The position numbers and the translations under genes were made by a program. The notes below the pieces were generated by a model, which was given only the letters and a program-made list of their open reading frames with translations, was not told where the DNA came from and did not search any database. From positions 1-64,000 of IMG/VR virus record IMGVR_UViG_3300044467_000006: 64,000 bases of DNA; one strand, written 5' to 3'. Below are positions 2,478-61,309 of the stretch, in pieces; the first letter of the stretch is position 1; every line of letters begins with the position of its first letter. The stretch is from a virus.

Positions 2478-2518
2478 TGGAAACATCGGGCGTTGTGCAG
2501 AGTCTCAATCTTCCATAC

Positions 2519-3079
2519 ATGGACGAAATCATCTACTCAAAGGAATACGACGGACTTAATAGGAAATGTGTTAGAAGTTCTTGCAAGCACTGCGGCAAGC
2601 CATACGTTGTCAGGTATAGTCTTCGGAAGTCCAAGAAAACATGCTCGATGATGTGCTCTTTCGCTTTGCGTAGTATCAAGCGGGAAGTCCGTTGTGCATG
2701 GTGCAATAAAAGCTTCTCAAGAACACCCAAAAAGCTCAAGACGAAAAGCGGGCTGGTGTTCTGTTCCCGAGCTTGTAAAGACAAAGCACAAAGGATTGGT
2801 GGGCTAGAAGCTATCCAGCCAGACCATTACGGAACAGAAGACCCTCGATACACCTATAGAAAGAGAGCGTTTGAGGTTTACGGCAAAGCGTGTTCTTCGT
2901 GCCACTACACTCATAAAGAATCTATGTTGGATGTACATCACATAGATTCAAACAGAGAGAATAATGCGCTCGGTAACCTTGAAGTTTTATGTGTATGGTG
3001 CCATGCAATTAAAACCCGAAAGCAAGAGTGGCATTTACAACAAGACGGCATCGCATTGACGGAGGAGAAACATGGCTAA
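2519..3079 (+). CDS. HNH endonuclease with zinc-finger N-terminus
   Basis: The C-terminal half carries an HNH nuclease core: CSSC, then VHHIDSN, then NLEVLCVWCH. Before it are treble-clef-like zinc pairs (CKHC/CSMMC and CAWC/CSRAC). This matches free-standing phage homing endonucleases. It sits immediately after tRNA-Ala. The start is uncertain: ATG at 2519 is used here, while an in-frame ATG at 2477 coincides with the tRNA 3' end, and neither has a good ribosome binding site. The stop overlaps the next start (ATGGCTAAG contains the TAA). Confidence 0.82.
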   Translation: MDEIIYSKEYDGLNRKCVRSSCKHCGKPYVVRYSLRKSKKTCSMMCSFALRSIKREVRCAWCNKSFSRTPKKLKTKSGLVFCSRACKDKAQRIGGLEAIQPDHYGTEDPRYTYRKRAFEVYGKACSSCHYTHKESMLDVHHIDSNRENNALGNLEVLCVWCHAIKTRKQEWHLQQDGIALTEEKHG

Positions 3080-3548: not shown

Positions 3549-3771
3549 GGACCGCAAGCCTGTCCGTAAGTTCAAGGCAGACGAGTTGCTTGCTATCTTG
3601 CAAGCTAAGATCGACAAGGAAGAGCACACCGTCAAGTGCTGCACGACTGACGACGGGACCGGGGTCCGTTGGCTTATGCGCAGCGAATTCCAGTCCGCTG
3701 CCGCTCGGAAGAGCGCTTTCGTTGAAGCCAAGATATTGCTGCTTGAAGCAGTCGCCAAGGAGACTACATGA
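3541..3771 (+). CDS. small hypothetical protein
   Basis: This encodes 76 mostly helical, charged residues, with start ATGGCTAAG nested over the upstream stop (8 nt overlap). No recognised domain. It is part of a tightly packed early operon. Confidence 0.7.
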   Translation: MAKDRKPVRKFKADELLAILQAKIDKEEHTVKCCTTDDGTGVRWLMRSEFQSAAARKSAFVEAKILLLEAVAKETT

Positions 3772-4016
3772 ACCCATGCCCTAGCTGTAAACGAACCAAC
3801 GGCACCCACACCATCAACTGCCGTCGCAGGTATACCAAGAGTGAGGACGAGAGCTACCGGGCGTACAACCCCGTCGATCCTCTCGTTACGGCGGCTTTGG
3901 TGGCTATGGCCACGGATAGCTCGTCCGACCCTAGCTCAGTGGACACTTCGTCCTCTGATTCGTGGTCGGGTGGTGGCGGGGACTTCAGTGGCGGTGGCGC
4001 TTCAGGAGACTACTAA
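3768..4016 (+). CDS. small Cys-pair, Ser/Gly-rich protein
   Basis: This encodes 82 residues. The N-terminus has CPSC and a further cysteine, suggesting a zinc site. The C-terminal third is low-complexity Ser/Asp/Gly (repeated GGG and SSS runs), a type of tail often seen on proteins with disordered ends. ATGA overlap upstream and TAATG downstream. Confidence 0.68.
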   Translation: MNPCPSCKRTNGTHTINCRRRYTKSEDESYRAYNPVDPLVTAALVAMATDSSSDPSSVDTSSSDSWSGGGGDFSGGGASGDY

Positions 4017-4186: not shown

Positions 4187-4455
4187 TGCTCAAAAGAATC
4201 TTGGTACTTGCCGCTTTGGCCTTGAGCGCCTGCACTCCGCAAGATGCGCAAAAGATCAAGGAGGTCAGGGTTATCGACCAATGCTTGCGTACCCAAATCT
4301 TTAAGGACTGCCTTGTTGTGGTCCCTAAAGGCCCAGAGAGGATTGCGAACTCTAACGACTGGGAAGAGGTTGTGACTGCATGCGCCGACGCAGCAATGTA
4401 CCAGTCTGTGAGACAGGCTGGACAAGTCAAGGCCGAGTGTGCTATTGTGTGGTAG
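4186..4455 (+). CDS. small lipoprotein
   Basis: This encodes 89 residues. The N-terminus is a signal peptide with a lipobox (LALSAC) and Cys17 as the predicted lipidated residue. The mature part has several cysteines. It starts in a TAATG junction with the upstream membrane protein. Phage lipoproteins of this size can be outer-membrane spanins or superinfection-exclusion proteins; there is no evidence to choose. Confidence 0.7.
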   Translation: MLKRILVLAALALSACTPQDAQKIKEVRVIDQCLRTQIFKDCLVVVPKGPERIANSNDWEEVVTACADAAMYQSVRQAGQVKAECAIVW

Positions 4456-4462
4456 GTGACTT

Positions 4463-5080
4463 ATGAACCGCTACAAATATCCGAAGACTCCCCACCTCCC
4501 TTGGAGCCCGGGTATGCAGAACGACGATACTCTCATTGAGAGTCTTGACGACTTCCTTGGGGAGCGGGTCATTGTGACCGAGAAGATGGACGGGGAGAAT
4601 ACGTCCATGTACCGCGACTACATCCACGCTAGGTCTGTGGATGGACGGCATCATCCTAGCCGTAATTGGGTGAAGGCTCTGCACGGAGAAATCAAGCACT
4701 CCATCCTGCCGGGGTGGAGGATTTGTGGCGAGAATCTGTATGCCAAGCACTCGATTGCTTACGAGGATCTGCCGAGCTACTTCATGGTCTTCTCGATTTG
4801 GGACGACGAAAACGGCTGCTGGGATTGGGACTACACCAAGCGATATTGCGCTGTAAGGAATCTAATTACTGTTCCGGTGCTGTATGACGGCATCTGGGAC
4901 GAGGACACTATCCGGTCTTGCTATAGGCCGGGTATGGAAGGCTACGTGGTTCGTAGAGCAGATGGTTTCGAGTTTGACGATTTCCGTAGCCGGGTAGCGA
5001 AGTATGTCCGAGCAGGACACGTTCAAACTTCGGAGCATTGGATGCATCAGGCAATTGTGCCAAATCAAACAAGGAACTAA
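4463..5080 (+). CDS. RNA ligase, second copy (PF09414-like)
   Basis: This 205-residue nucleotidyltransferase has motif I EKMDGEN with Lys41 as predicted adenylation site, CGENLY as motif III, EGYVVRR as motif IV and VAKYVR as motif V. It lacks the N-terminal domain of the ligase at 257-1261 and is typical of small phage RNA ligases. Two dissimilar RNA ligases in the first 5 kb may split substrates, for example different break sites in tRNA. Confidence 0.87.
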   Translation: MNRYKYPKTPHLPWSPGMQNDDTLIESLDDFLGERVIVTEKMDGENTSMYRDYIHARSVDGRHHPSRNWVKALHGEIKHSILPGWRICGENLYAKHSIAYEDLPSYFMVFSIWDDENGCWDWDYTKRYCAVRNLITVPVLYDGIWDEDTIRSCYRPGMEGYVVRRADGFEFDDFRSRVAKYVRAGHVQTSEHWMHQAIVPNQTRN

Positions 5081-6463: not shown

Positions 6464-7462
6464 ATGGAACCCCTTGAAAAGATCGGCTTCTACACTCTGT
6501 CCGACATGCGCCGTCGCACGATCTCTGGCTACGTTGGGGGCTACCGCAACTTTCCCGGTTTGTCTCGTTGCGAACTTCTGATTACGGACGCCTGCAACTT
6601 CAAGTGCCCCTACTGCCGTGGCTGTGCCGAGGAGTTCAAGGGCACCATGAAGGCGTCTGCTGCCTTCAACACCCTTCACCACTGGGTCAGCGACGGGCTC
6701 AAGAACGTTCGCTTCTCTGGAGGCGAACCCACCCTGCATCCTCATCTGGTCGAGATGGTGAAGTTCTGTAAGCTGAATGGAGTCAAGCGCATCGCGCTGT
6801 CTACCAACGGCTCTGCGCCCCCAGCCCAGTACGAGGCTCTGGTCGAGGCTGGGGTCAACGACTTCTCGATCTCGCTGGACGCTTGTTGTGCTGACAAGGG
6901 CGACGAGATGGCTGGCGTCAAGGGCTACTTTCCTGTCGTGGTGGACAACATCCGCTACCTGTCTTCGAAGACCTACGTGACGGTCGGGGTCGTCCTGACG
7001 GACTCCAACGTGGCTGACATGCTGAAGACGGTTACCTTTGCTCACGAGCTTGGGGTGGCCGACATCCGCATCATCTCATCGGCGCAGGAGAACAAGGAGC
7101 TTGCGGACGCCATCAACATTCCGCAGGACATCCTTGACGCGCATCCGATTCTGGCGTATCGTGTTCGTCACATCAAGGAAGGCCGCAACGTCCGAGGCAT
7201 CAAGGAGACTGACTGCAACCGCTGCCCGCTGGTGCTGGACGACATGGCCGTTCTGGGAGACAAGCACTTCCCGTGCATCATCTATCTGCGGGAAGGTGGA
7301 AAGCCGATTGGGACTGTCGGGCCTGACATGATGCTGGAGCGGGCTGTCTGGTATAGGGATCACGACACCCATAAGGATCCAATCTGCAAGAAGAACTGCC
7401 TCGATGTCTGCGTGGACTACAATAATGCAGTCGAACACGAACTGAAGCTCATGGGGGAATAA
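6464..7462 (+). CDS. radical SAM enzyme with auxiliary Cys cluster
   Basis: This 332-residue protein has the radical SAM cluster motif C44-NFK-C48-PY-C51 after TDA, a GGEPTL motif, and a TIM-barrel-length core. The C-terminal third has extra cysteines (CNRC, HFPC, CKKNC, CVDY) arranged like a SPASM/Twitch auxiliary iron-sulfur region. Such enzymes cleave SAM to a 5'-deoxyadenosyl radical for modification chemistry. AGGAGG precedes the ATG. It overlaps the next gene by TAATG, making that gene the best candidate partner. The substrate is unknown. Confidence 0.87.
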   Translation: MEPLEKIGFYTLSDMRRRTISGYVGGYRNFPGLSRCELLITDACNFKCPYCRGCAEEFKGTMKASAAFNTLHHWVSDGLKNVRFSGGEPTLHPHLVEMVKFCKLNGVKRIALSTNGSAPPAQYEALVEAGVNDFSISLDACCADKGDEMAGVKGYFPVVVDNIRYLSSKTYVTVGVVLTDSNVADMLKTVTFAHELGVADIRIISSAQENKELADAINIPQDILDAHPILAYRVRHIKEGRNVRGIKETDCNRCPLVLDDMAVLGDKHFPCIIYLREGGKPIGTVGPDMMLERAVWYRDHDTHKDPICKKNCLDVCVDYNNAVEHELKLMGE

Positions 7463-10443: not shown

Positions 10444-10557
10444 ATGCTGACTCGATCTGGGAAGACCGCCTCTAGCCAATTCATCAACGGATTCCTCTGC
10501 GGTATCTATATAACTCTCGCCTTGATTACCATCGTGAGGTTGTGGCGCTTGACATAG
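10444..10557 (+). CDS. very small membrane peptide
   Basis: This encodes 37 residues with a single hydrophobic span (about residues 14-30) flanked by basic residues. Its last codons contain the TTGACA of the downstream promoter. The short length lowers confidence. Confidence 0.45.
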   Translation: MLTRSGKTASSQFINGFLCGIYITLALITIVRLWRLT

Positions 10558-10577
10558 AACTCAAGATACCCTATACT
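10549..10577 (+). promoter_or_regulatory. sigma70 promoter for the DUF932 gene
   Basis: TTGACA at 10549-10554, 17-nt spacer, TATACT at 10572-10577: near consensus. Unlike its relatives in this window, it has a roughly 25-nt leader carrying an AAGGA ribosome binding site before the ATG at 10608. Confidence 0.78.
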
Positions 10578-10607: not shown

Positions 10608-11657
10608 ATGCCTACTCCCTTCCAGCCTGCCGTTAACCCTGCCGACAGCCACAACCCCGCTACCGCCCTCGTCACCGACTTCACGAAGGCCAGCGACACC
10701 GGCCTCGCCCCGTGGCAGGCTGCTGGCACCAAGATCCCCAACGAGGTTCTGACCGCCGAGGACGTGCTGGAGCGCTCTGGCAACCGCTTCAAGGTCAAGA
10801 CGGTTCCGGCCTATGCCAAGGTGGGCGACGAGTTCTACATGGCCAAGGACTCCAAGATGGTGGTCCGCGAGGACAACAACACCGTGCTGGGCGTCGTGGG
10901 CAACAAGTACCGCGTCATCCAGAACGAGGACCAGCTTGGGGCCATCAGCCCGCTGGTCACGAGCGGCTTCGCCAAGTACGACACCGCCGGGCTGGTCTAC
11001 GGCGGCGAGATCGGCTGGGTCATGCTCAAGCTCAACGACGAGATCGTCCTCCCGGGCAGCAACGACTTCGTCCTCAAGTATCTCATGTGCTTGTGGTCAC
11101 ACAACGGAACGTTCAGCCTCCGCATCTTCCCGGCTCCGCTCCGCGCGTTCTGCGCCAACGTCCTCAACAGCCTCCTGTCGTCGTCTTCTGCCAAGAGCGG
11201 TATCTCTATCCGCCACACGAGCAGCGCCGACGCCCGCATCAAGGAGGCTTCTCGCATCATCGAGGCTTCGCAGGGCTTCTACAACGACTTCGCCCAGCGA
11301 GCGGCATCGCTGTCGGCCAAGCGCATGACCGACGCCCAGATGAAGGCCCTGACCGAGCACCTCTTCCCGGCCAAGGCGAACACCGATGGCGAGGTCGAGG
11401 TCAGCACTCGGTCCCAGAACATCCGTGACCAGATCATGGACCTGTTCGTCAAGGGTGCAGGCCACGAGGCTATCCGTGGCACCGCTTGGGCGGGCTATAA
11501 CGCGGTTGCCGAGTTCGCGGACCACTTCCGCACCACTCGGGTCGAGGAGGGTGGCAATGAGAAGGAGAGCCGCTTCGCTGCGACCATGTGGGGCACGGGC
11601 AACGCCCTCAAGACGAAGGCCATCAACTACATTGACAACGAGCTTCTCGCGGCGTAA
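10608..11657 (+). CDS. DUF932 family protein
   Basis: This 349-residue protein belongs to DUF932, a family common in phages and plasmids. Recognisable segments are VVGNKYRVIQNED in the first third and a helix-rich C-terminal half. The family has no settled biochemical function. The start is placed at the ATG after AAGGA; an upstream in-frame ATG would put the promoter inside the gene. The strong promoter and a very biased codon choice suggest high expression. Confidence 0.82.
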   Translation: MPTPFQPAVNPADSHNPATALVTDFTKASDTGLAPWQAAGTKIPNEVLTAEDVLERSGNRFKVKTVPAYAKVGDEFYMAKDSKMVVREDNNTVLGVVGNKYRVIQNEDQLGAISPLVTSGFAKYDTAGLVYGGEIGWVMLKLNDEIVLPGSNDFVLKYLMCLWSHNGTFSLRIFPAPLRAFCANVLNSLLSSSSAKSGISIRHTSSADARIKEASRIIEASQGFYNDFAQRAASLSAKRMTDAQMKALTEHLFPAKANTDGEVEVSTRSQNIRDQIMDLFVKGAGHEAIRGTAWAGYNAVAEFADHFRTTRVEEGGNEKESRFAATMWGTGNALKTKAINYIDNELLAA

Positions 11658-11665: not shown

Positions 11666-11977
11666 ATGGCTAAGGAACTCTGGGAGATTTTGGTCCCAAC
11701 GATGAGGAATGACGGTCGGCCCTTCCGCTTGCGCTATCACAGAGTATGGGATGCGAAGGTTAGGGCGATTTCGGGTGGGCTGACCGTCATGCCGGTAGCT
11801 AAGGGCCAGTGGGTACATGGAGAAAAGCTCTTTACAGAGCGAATGATCCCGGTTAGAATCGTAGCAAGCAGAGCAGAGATGGACAACATCATCGACATGT
11901 CCATCAAGTATTACGACCAGATTGCAATGCTCGCGTACAAGGTTTCAGAGGAAGTCATCCTGAAGTACAGGGAGTAA
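11666..11977 (+). CDS. hypothetical protein
   Basis: This encodes 103 residues beginning MAKE, with a beta-rich N-terminal half and a helical C-terminal half. No recognised domain. It follows a predicted leaderless promoter. Confidence 0.7.
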   Translation: MAKELWEILVPTMRNDGRPFRLRYHRVWDAKVRAISGGLTVMPVAKGQWVHGEKLFTERMIPVRIVASRAEMDNIIDMSIKYYDQIAMLAYKVSEEVILKYRE

Positions 11978-11980
11978 ACC

Positions 11981-12265
11981 ATGGAAATCAAAAACATCGA
12001 AACCAAGAAGCACCTGACGATCTCGATCACCGAAGAGGAGGCAGCGGTTCTGGCTGCGGCTGCACGCAACTTCTATCAGGCTCGCGCAGCTTACGTCAGA
12101 GAGTGCCCGATGGGCACCGTGAACCTCAAGGCAAACTACGCTGTCCTGCTTAATGACATCGGGACGAATCTAACTAGGGCTATCGACCATCAGAAGAACG
12201 AGGATGTCTGGGCCTACGCAACGAGCGAACAGCCCCTTGTGAGCAGTAACGGCGATCCGATTTAA
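11981..12265 (+). CDS. hypothetical helical protein
   Basis: This encodes 94 residues with an Ala-rich helical middle section. It ends just before a long structured non-coding stretch. No family recognised. Confidence 0.7.
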   Translation: MEIKNIETKKHLTISITEEEAAVLAAAARNFYQARAAYVRECPMGTVNLKANYAVLLNDIGTNLTRAIDHQKNEDVWAYATSEQPLVSSNGDPI

Positions 12266-12635
12266 ACTTCAAGGGCATCCGCGTATACCCGGGTATCAGA
12301 GCTACGCCGCTTACGTAAACTACCTTCTAAACCCGGCGAGGTATCGGGTAAGTCGGCAAGTACCTAAGAGCACGGCGACTGCTAACGGCCCTGAATGGGG
12401 TAGTTGGAACCCAACGTGACCTGTCGGTGGAGGGAACCGAATGGAGCTAGGACTCTCCAAATTGCGCGGCCCCTTGCACAAGACCTAGTGTGGGTTGGGG
12501 TACCGTTCTGGAGGATTGACGAAAAATTCCTCCCGGTAACTGTTAGCCGTGTGAACACAGAGCCGTAAATTTGACGGAGCCGAGGGTGGAAAGACTCTAC
12601 ACGAAAGCCCTCACTTTCGTAGTGCTATAGTAGAA
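12266..12635 (+). ncRNA. candidate large structured non-coding RNA
   Basis: This roughly 370-nt gap lacks a credible open frame and is full of strong stems. TACCG-(4)-GGAGGA pairs with TCCTCC-CGGTA (12501-12538). ACGAAAG pairs with CTTTCGT (12601-12620). GTTGG pairs with CCAAC (12403-12415) and TGGAG with CTCCA (12442-12459). CTGC/GTAG stack with CCC/GGG (12379-12403), and CCGT pairs with ACGG (12563-12577). AGGGC near 12275 can pair with GCCCT near 12608 to close the whole domain, though this competes with the last hairpin. It does not match any RNA class I know. Group I intron, tmRNA and RNase P signatures were sought and not found convincingly. Confidence 0.55.
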
Positions 12636-12639
12636 ATGA

Positions 12640-12768
12640 ATGACAACGTTCAGCAAGGCAGAACTTAGAATCAATGGCAAGCTAATTGGCTTGCTAAGCG
12701 AAGTGAAGTACGATGTAGAAACCCGGCGGCATGGGGCTGGCGGGCAAAAACCAAAACAGGAGAATACA
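12640..12768 (+). other. in-frame leader ORF resembling a tail-tube fragment
   Basis: An open stretch of 43 codons is in frame with the next gene and begins at ATG 12640. It contains AELRINGKLIGLLSEV, whose pattern resembles residues 10-28 of the tail tube at 19222-19683. It may be an N-terminal extension of 12769-13245 or a relic of a duplicated tube gene. It has no good ribosome binding site. Confidence 0.35.
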
Positions 12769-13245
12769 ATGGCACAGGTTAAGGTGATTGCTGTTACCGC
12801 TGGCGAGGACTTTCTCAAGGCTCTGGAGAAGCTGCTCGGTGGCAAGATCGAGGACATCGCTTCGGGAGCCGTCGAGGCTTCGGCTGAGGCTGTTGCAGAG
12901 GACGAGGAGGAGGGCTGCTCGTGTGGCTGCGATGACTGCGCAGAGGAGAACGAGCCGTCAGTCCCGTTCGGTTCGATCCAGAGCGAGGACGAGGACGATA
13001 TCGCGTTCTACCGCACGTACAACGTCCCCAGCGCCGGGGACCTGAACGTCGTCGTCGGGCAGGATGGCGTTACCACCGAGGGCGAGCGTCATCTCGGCGT
13101 CGAGCCTGAGCATTTCACCAACCTCTTCGCTCCGCAGGGTGCGTTCGCTGAGGTCGAAGCGTTCTACGACGAGAGCGATGAGACTCTCACGGTCGTTCTC
13201 CAGAAGCTCGGTCCCGAGGAGACCGTCGAGATCGAGGGTTGGTAG
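12769..13245 (+). CDS. acidic hypothetical protein with Cys cluster
   Basis: This encodes 158 residues, strongly acidic. A Cys-rich centre (CSCGCDDC at about residues 47-54) could bind zinc or an iron-sulfur cluster. The start is the ATG after CAGGAGAATACA; an in-frame extension to 12640 is possible. It is flanked on both sides by structured non-coding RNA. No family recognised; the acidity could suit a DNA mimic, which is speculative. Confidence 0.7.
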   Translation: MAQVKVIAVTAGEDFLKALEKLLGGKIEDIASGAVEASAEAVAEDEEEGCSCGCDDCAEENEPSVPFGSIQSEDEDDIAFYRTYNVPSAGDLNVVVGQDGVTTEGERHLGVEPEHFTNLFAPQGAFAEVEAFYDESDETLTVVLQKLGPEETVEIEGW

Positions 13246-13349
13246 TTAAGCCGGTTGCGGGTTTGCCGAGAGTGACTACCTTCAGGCGAGGCCGCAACTG
13301 ATAGACGGGGCGCGCATGTCTGGCCTAACGCGCAATTTGAAAGGGAACA
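13246..13349 (+). ncRNA. structured intergenic region, two stem-loops
   Basis: GTTGCGG (13254-13260) pairs with CCGCAAC (13292-13298), with an inner TTGCC/GGCGA stem. A second GCGCG/CGCGC hairpin lies at about 13309-13334 and is followed by AATTT. It could be a terminator plus leader or a small RNA. No open frame seen. Confidence 0.4.
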
Positions 13350-19221: not shown

Positions 19222-19683
19222 TTACGGTAGGTTTGAAGCACCGACAGCTTCGGTGTTGTTGCCCGATTCGTCGCTAAGGCGTAGGCCGACAAAGTTGTAG
19301 CTGAGTTCTTCCAGAGACTTCGGGGCAACACTCGTGTTGAAACCAGCGTGACGGACGCCAGTGACAGTCATAACGACCTTGTCGGTTTGGCGGTCGTAGA
19401 GAGCGAAGGTCATGTCCTCGGCCGTCAAGAGGTCTTGGAGCTTGGGCATGTTGCCGCCGTCCTCGGTGAACGGTCCGTGGTCGATGACTCTCCACCCGCT
19501 GGCGGTGATGCCGATGGGCTCTGCTGCTGTGTAAGTTAGCTCCGCAGGAGAGAAACGACCGAGGACGAACGCGGGTTGCACGTCATACGCAAGACCGTAG
19601 CTGACGTTAGTAAAAACGCCAACAACCTTCTTGCCCAAAATGACTTGGCATCGTGCTCCGTGCATGATTTTACTTTGAGCCAA
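19222..19683 (-). CDS. putative tail tube protein
   Basis: This encodes 153 residues, beta-rich, with the tube-like opening MAQSKIMHGARCQVILGKK and a VFTNVSYG strand. Size and position just downstream of the sheath gene match the myovirus sheath-tube order. It is the last gene before a strong terminator. A small homing endonuclease separates it from the sheath. Assigned by fold pattern and context. Confidence 0.65.
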   Translation of the reverse strand: MAQSKIMHGARCQVILGKKVVGVFTNVSYGLAYDVQPAFVLGRFSPAELTYTAAEPIGITASGWRVIDHGPFTEDGGNMPKLQDLLTAEDMTFALYDRQTDKVVMTVTGVRHAGFNTSVAPKSLEELSYNFVGLRLSDESGNNTEAVGASNLP

Positions 19684-26378: not shown

Positions 26379-27197
26379 TTACCGATGGCCTGTAGAGGCT
26401 TGCTGGATAAGGGCGAGAATTTCCGGCTTGATTGTCTGGTCCCATTCGCGCTCGGCCCAAGTATAGGCTTCGTCCATGAGTTTTTTCGCTGGAACGCCCG
26501 GATGAACCCACTTCCCAGATCCTTTCTGCGAGGAAGAAACCACTCGGAAGGTCATAGCCGTCTTCTGGATCATTGGACTGGCCCCGCCAATCTGGCGCTG
26601 CATGACTCTCATACCCTGAAGGAAAGGGGTGCCGGTCTGCCCTTGCCTGACTTGGCCGATAGCTCCCCAACCCTGATAGGTGCCTTCCGATGTCTTGATG
26701 GGCTTGTCCATCACGTCGAGCTTGTGCAGTGCTCCGACTTTGGGTCGGCCATCGATCTCTTTCTCAATCTGCTTCATGTTGATGTTGGCGCGCTTGAGAG
26801 CATTCATAGCCGCAAGCCGGATTGGAAGGGCGTTAGGCGCAGTATTAGCGGCCCCCTTGATAGGGAAAGGGATGACCTTGTAACGGGTGCCCTTCTTGGA
26901 TGTCATGGCATTCTTGAGAAGGTCGTCGATCATCTCGTGTCGAGGCATTCCTTCTTCAATCCACATCGCCTTCTTATCTAGGGTGACGGTCCATGCTCCA
27001 CCTCCAGCGGCTTCATAGCTAAGAGCATTCAGGTATTCCTGTCGAGAAGTGCGAAGCTTGGACTGGGCGATCTCCACAACCTTTGAGTACGTCATGGCAG
27101 CAAGGTCTTCGGCTGACTGCGAAAGCATTGCATCTGCAATAGCCTTCACCCGCTCGTGCATAGCGGAGATATCGCCAAGGTTGAGGTTGAGGATCAT
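26379..27197 (-). CDS. minor virion protein, HK97-gp10-like
   Basis: This encodes 272 residues with a helical N-terminus, then TLDKKAMWIEEGMPRHE, which resembles the edge strand and loop of HK97 gp10-type tail-completion proteins, then a Lys-rich extension. Context (neck and tail genes) agrees. Its start overlaps the stop of the 1052-residue gene upstream. Confidence 0.55.
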   Translation of the reverse strand: MILNLNLGDISAMHERVKAIADAMLSQSAEDLAAMTYSKVVEIAQSKLRTSRQEYLNALSYEAAGGGAWTVTLDKKAMWIEEGMPRHEMIDDLLKNAMTSKKGTRYKVIPFPIKGAANTAPNALPIRLAAMNALKRANINMKQIEKEIDGRPKVGALHKLDVMDKPIKTSEGTYQGWGAIGQVRQGQTGTPFLQGMRVMQRQIGGASPMIQKTAMTFRVVSSSQKGSGKWVHPGVPAKKLMDEAYTWAEREWDQTIKPEILALIQQASTGHR

Positions 27198-30100
27198 TAG
27201 TGCTTACCCGATGGGTTCTGACCTCCACCGGGGTTCGGACCCGGCTGGGGGTCACTTGCCTTGCCGTCCTTGGCGTCACGGCCAGAGACTCCGTTGATGT
27301 GGCCTGCGCCAGACATGGCTTCTGCGTGGTTGTCTGGAAGAACACGACCAGAGTACGAACGGCGATAGACGGTCTTTCCTTCTACTTTGCCGCTATTGGA
27401 AATGTGAGCCGCTTGCCCGGGGTCTTGGTGGAACTCGCGAAAGGGCATGACTGTATTCTGGCCCTCTACGTGGATAGCGATGCCACCGTGGGGCTTAGCG
27501 GGAGTGTTATGCTTGGCTTGCTCTTCGGGAGTAGGCAGCTCCTCCTTGTCGAGATCCGTACCTTGCGGATACGGCCGATCCATGCGAGGCTCTACCTTTG
27601 TCCCGGCAGCCTTGGCGATTGCTCGGGGGCCGCGAAGTAAGGAGCTTTTCTTGATACTGAAGTCAGTGTTCTGCACCTTCACTTGATTGTCGATACCCGT
27701 ACGTTTTGTCTCGCGGCGACCGCCTACGATTTCGTAAGCCTTCCCCAACTCATCTTCCTTCTTGCGGACCTGATCGGCCCAGACAGCATTGCCCTTAAGG
27801 CTCTTAGACTTCTGAGTAGGCAGAGAACCGTATTGGGTAGGCTGATAATTCATCTTCTCAGGACCAGCGCCGTATGTATTCCTCATGTGAACAGGCAAGG
27901 GCTCATCTGGATCCTGATCGGATAGCGGAGCTTTGCTCTCGGGAGTCCAAATATGGACGGGCGTTCCTACAGGATACTTCTGGCGAGCGAACTCGTGGAA
28001 CGCATCGTGAAGAACTTGGTGAACTGGATGCCCCAATACTGTGCGGAACTTCTTTTCATTCTCAGAGCCGAAGTCGTGCTGAATCTCATCGATATGGAGG
28101 CCCTTGTCGTCGCCCGTATAACGAATCCATCCAAGGCCAGAAACGGGCTCGCCGGGGTGGTCAGAGTTGTGGCCCTCATTCATAGTGACACCCTGCTTGA
28201 GCATCGCTTCTGTCGCCGCCGTAGGTAAAGAAACTCGCAAAACCTTGGATGCGTCCTTGCTATGTTGCTGACCGCCATCCCATTTACCTTCAGTCAAATA
28301 GACAGGTATGCCGGGCAGGGAATCGATATGGCTTTGTAGCTCCTTAGAACTGAAGTTGCCGTTGGGCAGTCTTCCGATCTTGCCAAGCGCTTGCGCTGCG
28401 CCACCTAACTCAGCGGGCTTCACTTCACCACCCTTGGCCTCAATGGAATCGCGGATCTTGCGAATCTTGTGAAGACCGGGTTTGATGATAGTGGGCTTCA
28501 CCCCATTCGCCGCGTGAACCGAATCTGGATCTCGGGCGAATGGCTCAATCGCGGTAGGCGCATAGCCCAGCCGCGCGGCGACGAAGTGTTTTTTGCGTAG
28601 TTCGTAAAGCTCCTTAGCTTTTTCAAAAGGCACCTTTGGGCTTTGGATCAACTCTTTGAGCTGCATCACCGCGCGAGCGTGCTTCTCTTTGGTCGCTGAC
28701 GAAGCCGTCACTTTGGGCGGTGCGCGGACAACTTTTTCATAGGCAGCCACGAACTTGTCCATGTACTCTTGGGGGACTTTCGGGTGATTAAGGAGTTGAG
28801 TTTTTTGCCCTTCAGAGAGTCCCTTACTGGACAACTGCTTAAGAAGGTGAGGCAGTGGGGCTTGGGGGCTAATAAGCAATTGGGGCTTCCTATGGCCGGG
28901 AACCCTTTTGTTATCGAGAAGGCTGCCAATTTGAGTTTCATTGAGATCGACGCGCCGAGCTACACGATCTAAAACATCAGGGCTCTTGTCCTGTATGAGC
29001 TTGTCTAGTGCCGCAGGAGACAAACGGGCCTCGTGCCCCGCCAATTTACGACGGACGTGGGATTCGGGGTGGTTGGAAAGGAACGATTCCATTTCTGGCG
29101 TTAGCGGTTTGCGTTCTCGGGCTTCTAGCAAAGCAGGTAGGGCGTCCGAAGTGTCTATATCTTCGTCTTTGTTGTCAACGAAGTTGGTCAAAAACTTTTG
29201 CTCCAAAGGGCCATCCATCTTGGGATGGTTTGCAAAATCTTTGAGAATCCAGGCCAATTGGCCTTCGTTGTACAGCGCTCTTTGATGTAGCTTCACATAG
29301 TCGAGCATCTCGCTGAGCTTCTCGGGTGAAGTTTCGTCGTTGACAGCCGCCGCGCGAATTCTGCGGATGTCCGTAGCGCTCTTAAACAACGCCTCCTCAA
29401 AGAATTGCTCGCTCTTCTTGACCGCTTCCTGCTCTTCTTGTGGAGCTTCCTGACTGCCTCCACTAAAGGTCTTAGCCATCAGAATCATGGCTTGGATAGC
29501 ACCGACGACAGCTTGGTAAGCTTCGGGAGCCTGAGACTGTAGCTGCTCTAGAACTGGAGCTTGGGCCTTGACCGCCTGTAGAATCTGGGAGATTTTTTGC
29601 TTTAGTTCGTCACCAGAAGAGCCACCCTGCGCAGCGGCATTAGCCTGACCTTCTGCACGAGCCACCTCGGCTTCGCCTTGAGAAGCCATCTGGTGAAACT
29701 GTCGCTCAACGGGAGACAGTCCGTCGGCCATGTTGGTGGAAGATGGAGGAGGCGGCATTTCAGACGAGCCACCCGAGATGGGCTGTTGGGGAGTAAAGGG
29801 GCTTGCGCCTGACGTGTCATTGCGAAGGTTCTGGTGCTTGATAGCGTGTACGCCACGGGGCTGTACAGAATGCGTAGGCGTATTGGACTTGTTAAGGCTC
29901 TTGAGCTTGTCGGGATCGGGACTAGGAGTCTTGCCAACGTGAGAGTCGCTCTGGGACTCTTCATCACCACCAACCATCTGCTCAATCTCTGGAGCGTAGA
30001 ACAGAATTCGGGAGCCGCCGCGCTTCTTGCCAGCGTCCAATGCTTTCTTGGCTTCGCGGAGATCCAAGCCGACACCGATTGTGATGGTGTCGTTCCATGC

Positions 30101-30355
30101 CTCTTGGAGTTCCTCGTGGAGTTTGCCTAGTTCTGCAAGGCGTTCGCCAGCGACAGAGGCGTAGATTTCGTCCCCGTGGAACAAAAGTACCCGGCCTCCT
30201 CGCTCTTCAAGCCATGACCGCAATAGCTTATCGCCACGCTCGATGTCTTGTGACATCTGAGCGATCTTCTCTGGCTTGTTGTTGCGGATGGCCCGATCTA
30301 CGGCAGGGCTGATGTTGTCCGCGTCGATGAGTAGGAAAATTTCTTGTGAAGACAT
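27197..30355 (-). CDS. giant polyvalent protein: GGDEF/mCpol-like palm, helical repeats, DEIQ-D domain
   Basis: This encodes 1052 residues from ATG 30355 (TAATG with the HNH gene). Residues 1-130 form a palm domain of the GGDEF superfamily, closest in pattern to GTP cyclohydrolase III/mCpol: LLIDADN with metal ligands D11 and D13, FHGDEIY at 59-65 in place of GGDE, then ITIGVGLDLREAKKAL. A disordered region follows. About residues 340-580 carry LRV/HEAT-like repeats (recurrent NHP). A domain with GWIRYTGD and HIDEIQHDF, shared with 36585-38537 and 47550-53153, occupies about residues 690-900. Probably virion-associated. Whether the palm is catalytic is unknown. Confidence 0.72.
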   Translation of the reverse strand: MSSQEIFLLIDADNISPAVDRAIRNNKPEKIAQMSQDIERGDKLLRSWLEERGGRVLLFHGDEIYASVAGERLAELGKLHEELQEAWNDTITIGVGLDLREAKKALDAGKKRGGSRILFYAPEIEQMVGGDEESQSDSHVGKTPSPDPDKLKSLNKSNTPTHSVQPRGVHAIKHQNLRNDTSGASPFTPQQPISGGSSEMPPPPSSTNMADGLSPVERQFHQMASQGEAEVARAEGQANAAAQGGSSGDELKQKISQILQAVKAQAPVLEQLQSQAPEAYQAVVGAIQAMILMAKTFSGGSQEAPQEEQEAVKKSEQFFEEALFKSATDIRRIRAAAVNDETSPEKLSEMLDYVKLHQRALYNEGQLAWILKDFANHPKMDGPLEQKFLTNFVDNKDEDIDTSDALPALLEARERKPLTPEMESFLSNHPESHVRRKLAGHEARLSPAALDKLIQDKSPDVLDRVARRVDLNETQIGSLLDNKRVPGHRKPQLLISPQAPLPHLLKQLSSKGLSEGQKTQLLNHPKVPQEYMDKFVAAYEKVVRAPPKVTASSATKEKHARAVMQLKELIQSPKVPFEKAKELYELRKKHFVAARLGYAPTAIEPFARDPDSVHAANGVKPTIIKPGLHKIRKIRDSIEAKGGEVKPAELGGAAQALGKIGRLPNGNFSSKELQSHIDSLPGIPVYLTEGKWDGGQQHSKDASKVLRVSLPTAATEAMLKQGVTMNEGHNSDHPGEPVSGLGWIRYTGDDKGLHIDEIQHDFGSENEKKFRTVLGHPVHQVLHDAFHEFARQKYPVGTPVHIWTPESKAPLSDQDPDEPLPVHMRNTYGAGPEKMNYQPTQYGSLPTQKSKSLKGNAVWADQVRKKEDELGKAYEIVGGRRETKRTGIDNQVKVQNTDFSIKKSSLLRGPRAIAKAAGTKVEPRMDRPYPQGTDLDKEELPTPEEQAKHNTPAKPHGGIAIHVEGQNTVMPFREFHQDPGQAAHISNSGKVEGKTVYRRSYSGRVLPDNHAEAMSGAGHINGVSGRDAKDGKASDPQPGPNPGGGQNPSGKH

Positions 30356-30780: not shown

Positions 30781-30794
30781 ACACGATCTCCTAT

Positions 30795-30804
30795 CCTAAG
30801 ATTG
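30795..30804 (-). promoter_or_regulatory. late motif CAATCTTAGG
   Basis: Exact copy of the consensus, read leftward, ending 14 nt before the HNH ATG, with an AGGAG ribosome binding site between. It is one half of a divergent pair with 30833-30842. Confidence 0.65.
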
Positions 30805-30832
30805 GGTCTAAGAATGTCCTTAGCCCCGAAGG

Positions 30833-30842
30833 CAATCTTACT
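30833..30842 (+). promoter_or_regulatory. late motif CAATCTTACT (rightward)
   Basis: This copy faces right and ends 8 nt before the ATG at 30851. Having one copy per direction in a 70-nt divergent gap argues for promoter function. Confidence 0.6.
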
Positions 30843-30850
30843 CATACCAC

Positions 30851-31726
30851 ATGAAACGCTTAACCATCCAAGACTGCGATACTCTTGCTCTGACCCACGG
30901 GGGGCGCTGTCTGTCTATTGCCTATCAAGGTACTGGCCTTCCGCTGTGGTGGGAATGCGGTAAGCACCATCAATGGACTAGTAGGCCAAACGATATCAAG
31001 AGAGGTACTTGGTGTCCAAACTGTGCTGGCAACAAGCCACTGTCTATTGAAGACCTACGCGCAATGGCTAGTCTCAAAAACGGCAAGTGTTTAGATTCTA
31101 AATGTCTGGGAGCTTCCAAAAAACACCACTGGGAATGTAACAGGGGCCATCGGTGGACGGCTAAGCCCAACTACATTCAACAAGGCAATTGGTGCCCAGA
31201 CTGTGGCGGATCCAAACGACTGTCCATAGGGTTGCTACACAATACAGCCGACCAGAACAACGGGAAGTGCCTATCTGAAACCTACACAAATTCACATGCA
31301 AAATACGAATGGCAATGTCGCTTTGGACACCAATGGAAATCTAAAGCATACACCGTCATTAATGGACACTGGTGCCCGTTTTGCATTAATAGGATCTCCA
31401 AGCCAGAAATCCAGTTTCGCAATGCCATTCAGCAAGTTTACGCGGAATGCGTTGGCAACGTTCGCGGGATACTAGAAAACAAGAAAATGGAGTTAGACAT
31501 CTACTTACCCGGTTTACGCAAAGCTATCGAATTTGATGGAGATTATTGGCATTCACGGCCAGAATCGCAGAAGCGCGACTTACACAAAGACGAACAATGC
31601 CGCAAGGCCAACGTGAGCCTACTCAGAATAAAAAGTTCGGAATTTAAAGCCGACCCACAGGCTACGATTGCGCGCGCAATATCGTGGCTAGCCTCAGAGG
31701 AGGCCCCAAATGTCTCTATCGCCTAA
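30851..31726 (+). CDS. zinc-ribbon repeat endonuclease (Vsr/PD-(D/E)XK-like homing nuclease)
   Basis: This encodes 291 residues. Three tandem zinc-ribbon units of about 55 residues each end in WCPxC (CPNC, CPDC, CPFC) with preceding GH-W motifs. A nuclease domain follows: MELDIYLP, then AIEFDGDYWH and a late LLRIKSSEF strand, the arrangement of Vsr-like/PD-(D/E)XK homing endonucleases. The zinc repeats probably read DNA. It opens the rightward island within the late block. Confidence 0.75.
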   Translation: MKRLTIQDCDTLALTHGGRCLSIAYQGTGLPLWWECGKHHQWTSRPNDIKRGTWCPNCAGNKPLSIEDLRAMASLKNGKCLDSKCLGASKKHHWECNRGHRWTAKPNYIQQGNWCPDCGGSKRLSIGLLHNTADQNNGKCLSETYTNSHAKYEWQCRFGHQWKSKAYTVINGHWCPFCINRISKPEIQFRNAIQQVYAECVGNVRGILENKKMELDIYLPGLRKAIEFDGDYWHSRPESQKRDLHKDEQCRKANVSLLRIKSSEFKADPQATIARAISWLASEEAPNVSIA

Positions 31727-60889: not shown

Positions 60890-60974
60890 GATTGAATCTC
60901 CTTTGTTTGTGAGTAGGCGAGTCCCTTAACTCACACTTAAGTTTGTGCTGGGGCTTCCGCAAAAAGTGCGAACA

Positions 60975-60984
60975 CAATCTTGCT
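60975..60984 (+). promoter_or_regulatory. late-motif variant CAATCTTGCT (rightward)
   Basis: Rightward copy ending 4 nt before the ATG at 60989, in the 99-nt divergent gap. Confidence 0.45.
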
Positions 60985-60988
60985 AAAC

Positions 60989-61309
60989 ATGAACAGATAC
61001 AAGTGCTTGTCTTGTGGCCACGAAAAACGCAGAACGGAATTCTACGAAAAACGTAGCAATAGCGCCAAGTTAAGACCTGTATCTTCAGATTGCCGTATTT
61101 GTCGCAGCACCAATCGTTCGGTTCAAATGGGCGCGACAATAGATGGAAACTGCCAGCGCTGTGGAACGCCAGCGATCCTGTCAAGCAATAAGCAGTGCAA
61201 AAGATGCCTCAAACAACAGGGGCTAAAGCAGTGCCGCTCCTGTCGAGAGGTCAAAATCGTAGAGTTGTGGTTTTACGAGAAGAAGGCTCTCTGTAAGGAC
61301 TGCCTCTAG
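60989..61309 (+). CDS. multi-zinc-finger protein, possible homing endonuclease relic
   Basis: This encodes 106 residues with four CxxC groups (CLSC, CRIC, CQRC, CKRC) plus CRSC and CKDC. The opening CLSCGHEKRRTEFYE resembles the zinc N-terminus of the endonuclease VII-like gene at 22450-22920, but no HNH core follows. It faces right within leftward genes and overlaps the GGDEF gene end by 4 nt. Either a relic or a free-standing DNA-binding protein. Confidence 0.62.
   Translation: MNRYKCLSCGHEKRRTEFYEKRSNSAKLRPVSSDCRICRSTNRSVQMGATIDGNCQRCGTPAILSSNKQCKRCLKQQGLKQCRSCREVKIVELWFYEKKALCKDCL

Follow-up and report, generated by a model that had tools for sequence, protein, structure and literature searches.

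The window, the whole 64,000-nucleotide stretch of DNA that we analysed, is part of a 94,360-base virus record in IMG/VR. Between a 94-aa gene and the gene for an acidic protein, it carries a long segment that appears to be untranslated. The features of this locus are as follows.

10549-10577, plus strand: promoter-like TTGACA-17-TATACT before the DUF932 gene
10608-11657, plus strand: gene for a DUF932 / TIGR03299 protein, the left end of the conserved interval
11981-12265, plus strand: upstream gene, encoding a 94-aa protein of no family; in the near-identical contig G001 its allele is divergent
12266-12639, plus strand: core non-coding gap, 374 nt, with no coding signal in either orientation; 100% identical in G001
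12270-12476, plus strand: predicted closed domain, CAAGGG-CCGCGTA (12270-12285) paired with TGCGCGG-CCCTTG (12463-12476), with three hairpins inside
12441-12488, plus strand: 15-codon ORF behind GGAGG (MELGLSKLRGPLHKT), a possible leader peptide that could be due to chance
12501-12538, plus strand: best-determined single hairpin, TACCG...GGAGGA/TCCTCC...CGGTA, pair probability 0.85-0.98
12601-12620, plus strand: 7-bp hairpin ACGAAAG-CCCTCA-CTTTCGT
12640-12768, plus strand: probable continuation of the untranslated segment; in-frame codon score 0.02 per codon, near zero
12769-13245, plus strand: gene downstream of the gap, with AGGAG as its ribosome-binding site; encodes an acidic protein of 158 aa that has a CxCxCxxC stretch and belongs to no family
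13246-13349, plus strand: a further untranslated segment of 104 nt, following the acidic gene; contains a strong GGTTGCGG...CCGCAACT hairpin

Promoter-like sites lie upstream of the gap at 10549, 11632 and 11831, and we found none within or just before it. Two further observations concern the neighbouring DNA. The 103-aa gene at 11666-11977 contains a long inverted repeat (11680-11799) that makes folding unusually stable on either strand (z = -3.2 and -4.9), and the 104-nt segment behind the acidic gene has ACTACCTTC in common with the main gap (p about 0.12).

The major capsid protein of this virus is 56% identical to its counterpart in Myxococcus phage Mx1 and shares up to 63% identity with the capsid proteins of about 50 IMG/VR contigs; the tail sheath likewise matches Mx1. 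Judging by these two proteins, the virus is an Mx1-like, contractile-tailed phage. By sequence it is far from all sequenced relatives, apart from a single near-identical contig, IMGVR_UViG_3300044786_000009 (G001; 20.8 kb, from metagenome 3300044786), which is 99.7% identical to the window over 10 kb. Elsewhere in the window, a 1052-aa protein (27197-30355, minus strand) has an N-terminal mCpol (minimal CRISPR polymerase / nucleotide cyclase) domain (Pfam E = 8e-11; the NCBIfam match, at 1.4e-05, is under its cut-off). Its gene lies near the tail genes and on the same strand as them; in Mx1, a gene annotated 'nucleotide cyclase' adjoins the capsid genes.

How unusual is a gap of this kind? The preliminary description of the locus reported about 370 nt without an open frame in a genome where most intergenic gaps are below 20 nt, and both statements are borne out. 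The gap spans 374 nt (12266-12639), from the TAA stop at 12263-12265 up to ATG 12640, the first start codon that could be used after it. The best codon-usage segment in the gap scores 3.3 on the plus strand and 2.1 on the minus strand, compared with a mean of 4.0 and a 95th percentile of 6.1 for shuffled sequence, and the adjoining 94-aa gene scores 21 in the same test. On these scores, we rejected the possibility that a shifted reading frame or the opposite strand is coding. Across the 127 called genes of the 94,360-base record, the median intergenic gap is 3 nt and 71% of gaps are shorter than 20 nt; the 374-nt gap ranks second in length. The longest gap (60890-61305) probably hides an uncalled Cys-rich gene. 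By eye, the apparent gaps at 2479-3071, 30781-31709 and 60890-61305 look like uncalled genes for Cys/His-rich, HNH-like free-standing endonucleases with unusual codon usage.

The segment was originally delimited as 12266-12635. Its left border, directly after the stop codon, stands, but the right border was set slightly short. The ORF in frame with the downstream gene has two possible starts, 12640 and 12769. ATG 12769 has AGGAG eight bases upstream, and the gene at the corresponding place in the relative G048, described below, has a start context nearly the same as that at ATG 12769 (ggagaatacaATG). Judged by this context, the downstream gene most likely starts at ATG 12769, and with that start the untranslated span would be 12266-12768 (503 nt). 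Residues 5-30 of the longer reading (12640-12729) are weakly similar to the tail tube proteins of these phages, at their first beta-hairpin (profile E = 0.018), and given this likeness, translation could conceivably begin at ATG 12640. The phage's own tube gene, at 19222-19665, lies a long way from the DNA for this tube-like peptide (plus strand).

It is tempting to see a structured RNA in such a segment, and at least six stem-loops and a possible closing helix had been noted in it. The hairpins named at that time exist (for example 12510-12533 and 12601-12620), but structure beyond chance was not confirmed. The MFE of 12266-12635 corresponds to z = +0.13, with 58 of 100 dinucleotide shuffles folding at least as well, and the reverse strand gives z = -0.59. 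The 503-nt span, again compared with dinucleotide shuffles, has z = -0.30, while sliding 120-nt windows within the gap range from z = +1.1 to -1.9. There are 9 perfect hairpins, compared with 6.5 +/- 1.7 in shuffles, a count reached by 11% of shuffles and 19% of genome windows. Structure beyond chance is supported neither by folding energy nor by hairpin counts. The closed domain at 12270-12476 has pair probabilities of 0.97-0.99 when folded alone and 0.6-0.7 in the full segment; its z = -1.27 applies to boundaries that were picked after folding. The 12601-12620 hairpin was considered as an intrinsic terminator and rejected, as no T run follows it. No iterons or direct repeats that would point to an origin were found in the gap. 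A long gap with visible hairpins in one sequence is not equivalent to a structured RNA; shuffles of equal composition fold as well.

A search of 4,227 Rfam families, at gathering thresholds and at E up to 10, gave no match inside the gap, consistent with the earlier view that it fits no known RNA class. ARAGORN found no tRNA or tmRNA in the gap, and a single tRNA-Ala lies at 2406-2478, about 10 kb away. The one hint of a known class, a resemblance of AGCCGAGGGTG to part of a group I intron P8 region, did not hold up. The group I intron model RF00028 is silent across the whole 94-kb record at E up to 10, and by eye no P7 and P3 can be arranged around the 12601-12620 hairpin taken as P8. AGCCGAGGGTG does not belong to any detectable group I core. 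The 94-aa upstream ORF ends at its own stop, and no homologue was found with which the length of its protein could be compared.

We also checked relatives for conservation of the sequence and found none; the sole other copy is that of the near-clonal contig G001. There, the 503-nt span is 100% identical, with no substitution to inform on pairing. BLAST searches with the gap as query, against 50,697 phage records, plasmids and E. coli genomes, found no further copy, and one against 50 Mx1-like viral records found no relative; all matches were 13-20 nt long and at chance level. The best of these, 17 nt in G027 with E about 0.01, was rejected; it falls within or next to a methyltransferase-like gene, on the opposite strand. 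Exact 19-mer and 18-mer scans of IMG/VR returned G001 alone. A 19-mer match in GTDB, in an Aldersonia contig, was judged to be chance (about two are expected at that size, and the covariance models are silent there). Single-sequence covariance models of the gap (R1 and R2), which recover the window and G001, gave nothing credible in 50 relatives; a 12.5-bit match in Mx1 was rejected because it overlies the start of an annotated gene. The BLAST and R1/R2 searches were run without a positive control among the 50 relatives, and we give the empty homologue searches only limited weight, as an RNA that diverges fast could escape them. The G001 sequence diverges abruptly from the window left of about 12245, inside the 94-aa gene, and is nearly identical to the right of that point, which may reflect either recombination at the left border of the gap or a strain variant.

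A DUF932 protein search of relatives led to G048 (IMGVR_UViG_3300045974_000209; 13.8 kb), whose DUF932 protein is 63% identical, and tail sheath 54% identical, to those of the window. The order of nucleotidase, HTH and deaminase-like, and tail tube genes is common to both. Within the DUF932-to-acidic-gene interval, G048 has a 294-nt gap (3686-3979, plus strand) with no coding signal, the largest co-directional gene-free gap of this contig. BLASTP gave no match between the window acidic gene and the G048 gene at 4411-5004; position, start context and the colinear motifs SGAVEA, F..YNV and A(Y/F)..(D/E) suggest that the two are counterparts. The slots differ in that two small genes precede the window gap and one membrane-protein gene follows the G048 gap. 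Directly before gene starts of G048 (1293-1330, 1521-1556 and 6763-6796), repeated TTGAC(T/C)...TAACCCA...TATACT-like boxes can be seen by eye; these are probably phage promoters with very short leaders.

The G048 gap has an MFE z of -1.96 (8 of 200 shuffles as good; about -2.0 in a repeat), and about 5% of equal-size coding windows reach z = -1.9. Its reverse strand gives z = -3.25. With boundaries picked after folding, the domain at 3689-3912 has z = -3.0 and the hairpin at 3716-3780 has z = -4.7. On these folding estimates, the G048 gap makes a better structured-RNA candidate than the gap in the window. In either gap, three or four hairpins can be drawn inside a closed domain of 207-224 nt, and the first hairpin of both domains contains GCCG...ACTACC...AAGTCGGC, a motif found by comparing the two gaps. 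Local alignment of the window and G048 gaps gives no support for homology (p = 0.23), the 8- and 9-mers that they share are at chance level, and covariance models built from either gap do not recognise the other. Homology of the two gaps is not supported by sequence or structure, and their similar position is no more than suggestive. G048 has roughly 27 intergenic slots and the interval has two; from this we roughly estimate the probability of a coincidence at about 7%. The G048 gap also contains a 16-codon ORF behind GGAG. In all, the idea of a structured RNA at this locus gains mild support from a syntenic gap that is non-coding and folds better.

Our best explanation, held tentatively, is that 12266-12768 may be a long, fast-evolving stretch of untranslated DNA, intercistronic or leader, within a phage operon whose genes all run in one direction. 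The segment would be co-transcribed with the upstream DUF932 genes and the downstream acidic-protein gene, which we infer because they share a strand and no internal promoter was seen. It would form ordinary local hairpins and evolve too fast for sequence recognition even in a syntenic relative. Its likeliest effect would be local, on the stability, processing or translation of the acidic-protein mRNA. The short ORFs behind GGAGG in the window and GGAG in G048 would fit a leader-peptide arrangement, to which we give little weight because such ORF pairs often arise by chance. The reading as a leader is supported by the outlying length, the lack of coding signal, the strand shared with both neighbours, the promoter-like sites seen only upstream and the better-folding G048 gap in the same interval; the shuffle-level folding, the lack of likeness to the G048 gap and the non-identical slots count against it. 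A neutral spacer or decayed gene is almost as probable as a functional leader. It is quite conceivable that the segment is functionless, the remains of a decayed or exchanged gene that mosaic recombination left behind in this variable early region. Folding no better than that of shuffles and the absence of a homologue in any search are consistent with this, as is the apparent recombination point at the left border of the gap, where the G001 allele of the upstream gene diverges while the right side is nearly identical. In addition, the 26-residue stretch at 12640-12729 that resembles a tail tube N terminus (E = 0.018) could be a gene relic. However, no trace of codon bias is left, dense phage genomes tend to shed dead DNA, and in a related phage this interval also contains a gap, one that folds better than chance.

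The data do not support a large structured RNA of a new class, although one is possible. It would take the form of a stand-alone, trans-acting RNA that diverges quickly, with the closed multi-branch domain at 12270-12476 and further hairpins; we consider this unlikely. The length and position of the gap would suit such an RNA, as would the closing helix, which is well determined when the domain is folded alone, and the closed domain of the G048 gap, with four hairpins of similar size and the same GCCG...ACTACC...AAGTCGGC in the first of them. Set against these points are the chance-level word sharing (p = 0.23-0.41), the failure of the covariance models to cross-recognise the window and G048, and the lack of a detectable promoter or terminator of its own. 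The more specific proposal, that the window and G048 represent a fast-evolving class of large phage RNAs with a domain of about 200 nt, the first-hairpin motif and almost no sequence conservation, is in our judgement distinctly improbable. That the gap is a diverged representative of large RNAs already known, either a group I intron or a GOLLD/ROOL-like RNA, is very improbable. The initial impression from AGCCGAGGGTG and the free-standing HNH-like genes seen by eye elsewhere in the phage speak for it; the empty Rfam search, the silence of RF00028, the upstream ORF, which ends at its own stop with no interrupted gene apparent, and the distance to the only tRNA leave this reading largely refuted.

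What would follow from each outcome? If the segment is only a leader or spacer, the gain is little more than an improved annotation for one Mx1-like phage. If covariation were found in closer relatives, the locus would hold a large phage RNA whose place in the genome, between the DUF932 and acidic genes, is defined, and further members would be easy to collect by that address.

Comparison with known RNAs places the gap near several of them in outline. Group I introns are a few hundred nucleotides long and contain several hairpins, and the gap resembles them in size range and in its several hairpins; it differs in that the genome has no match to the RF00028 core and that no split gene is apparent. 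It is also, like GOLLD and ROOL, a long non-coding segment of a phage genome. GOLLD and ROOL are large ornate RNAs of phages and prophages, often located beside tRNA islands; GOLLD members often exceed 800 nt, and the structures of both are supported by covariation (PMC12286853). In contrast, our gap measures 374-503 nt, has no Rfam match and no excess structure, and lies about 10 kb from the sole tRNA. The manA and wcaG leader motifs have many homologues with conserved structure, whereas the window gap has none. Both motifs are structured RNA candidates from phages, and wcaG RNAs appear to regulate adjacent genes (PMC2864571).
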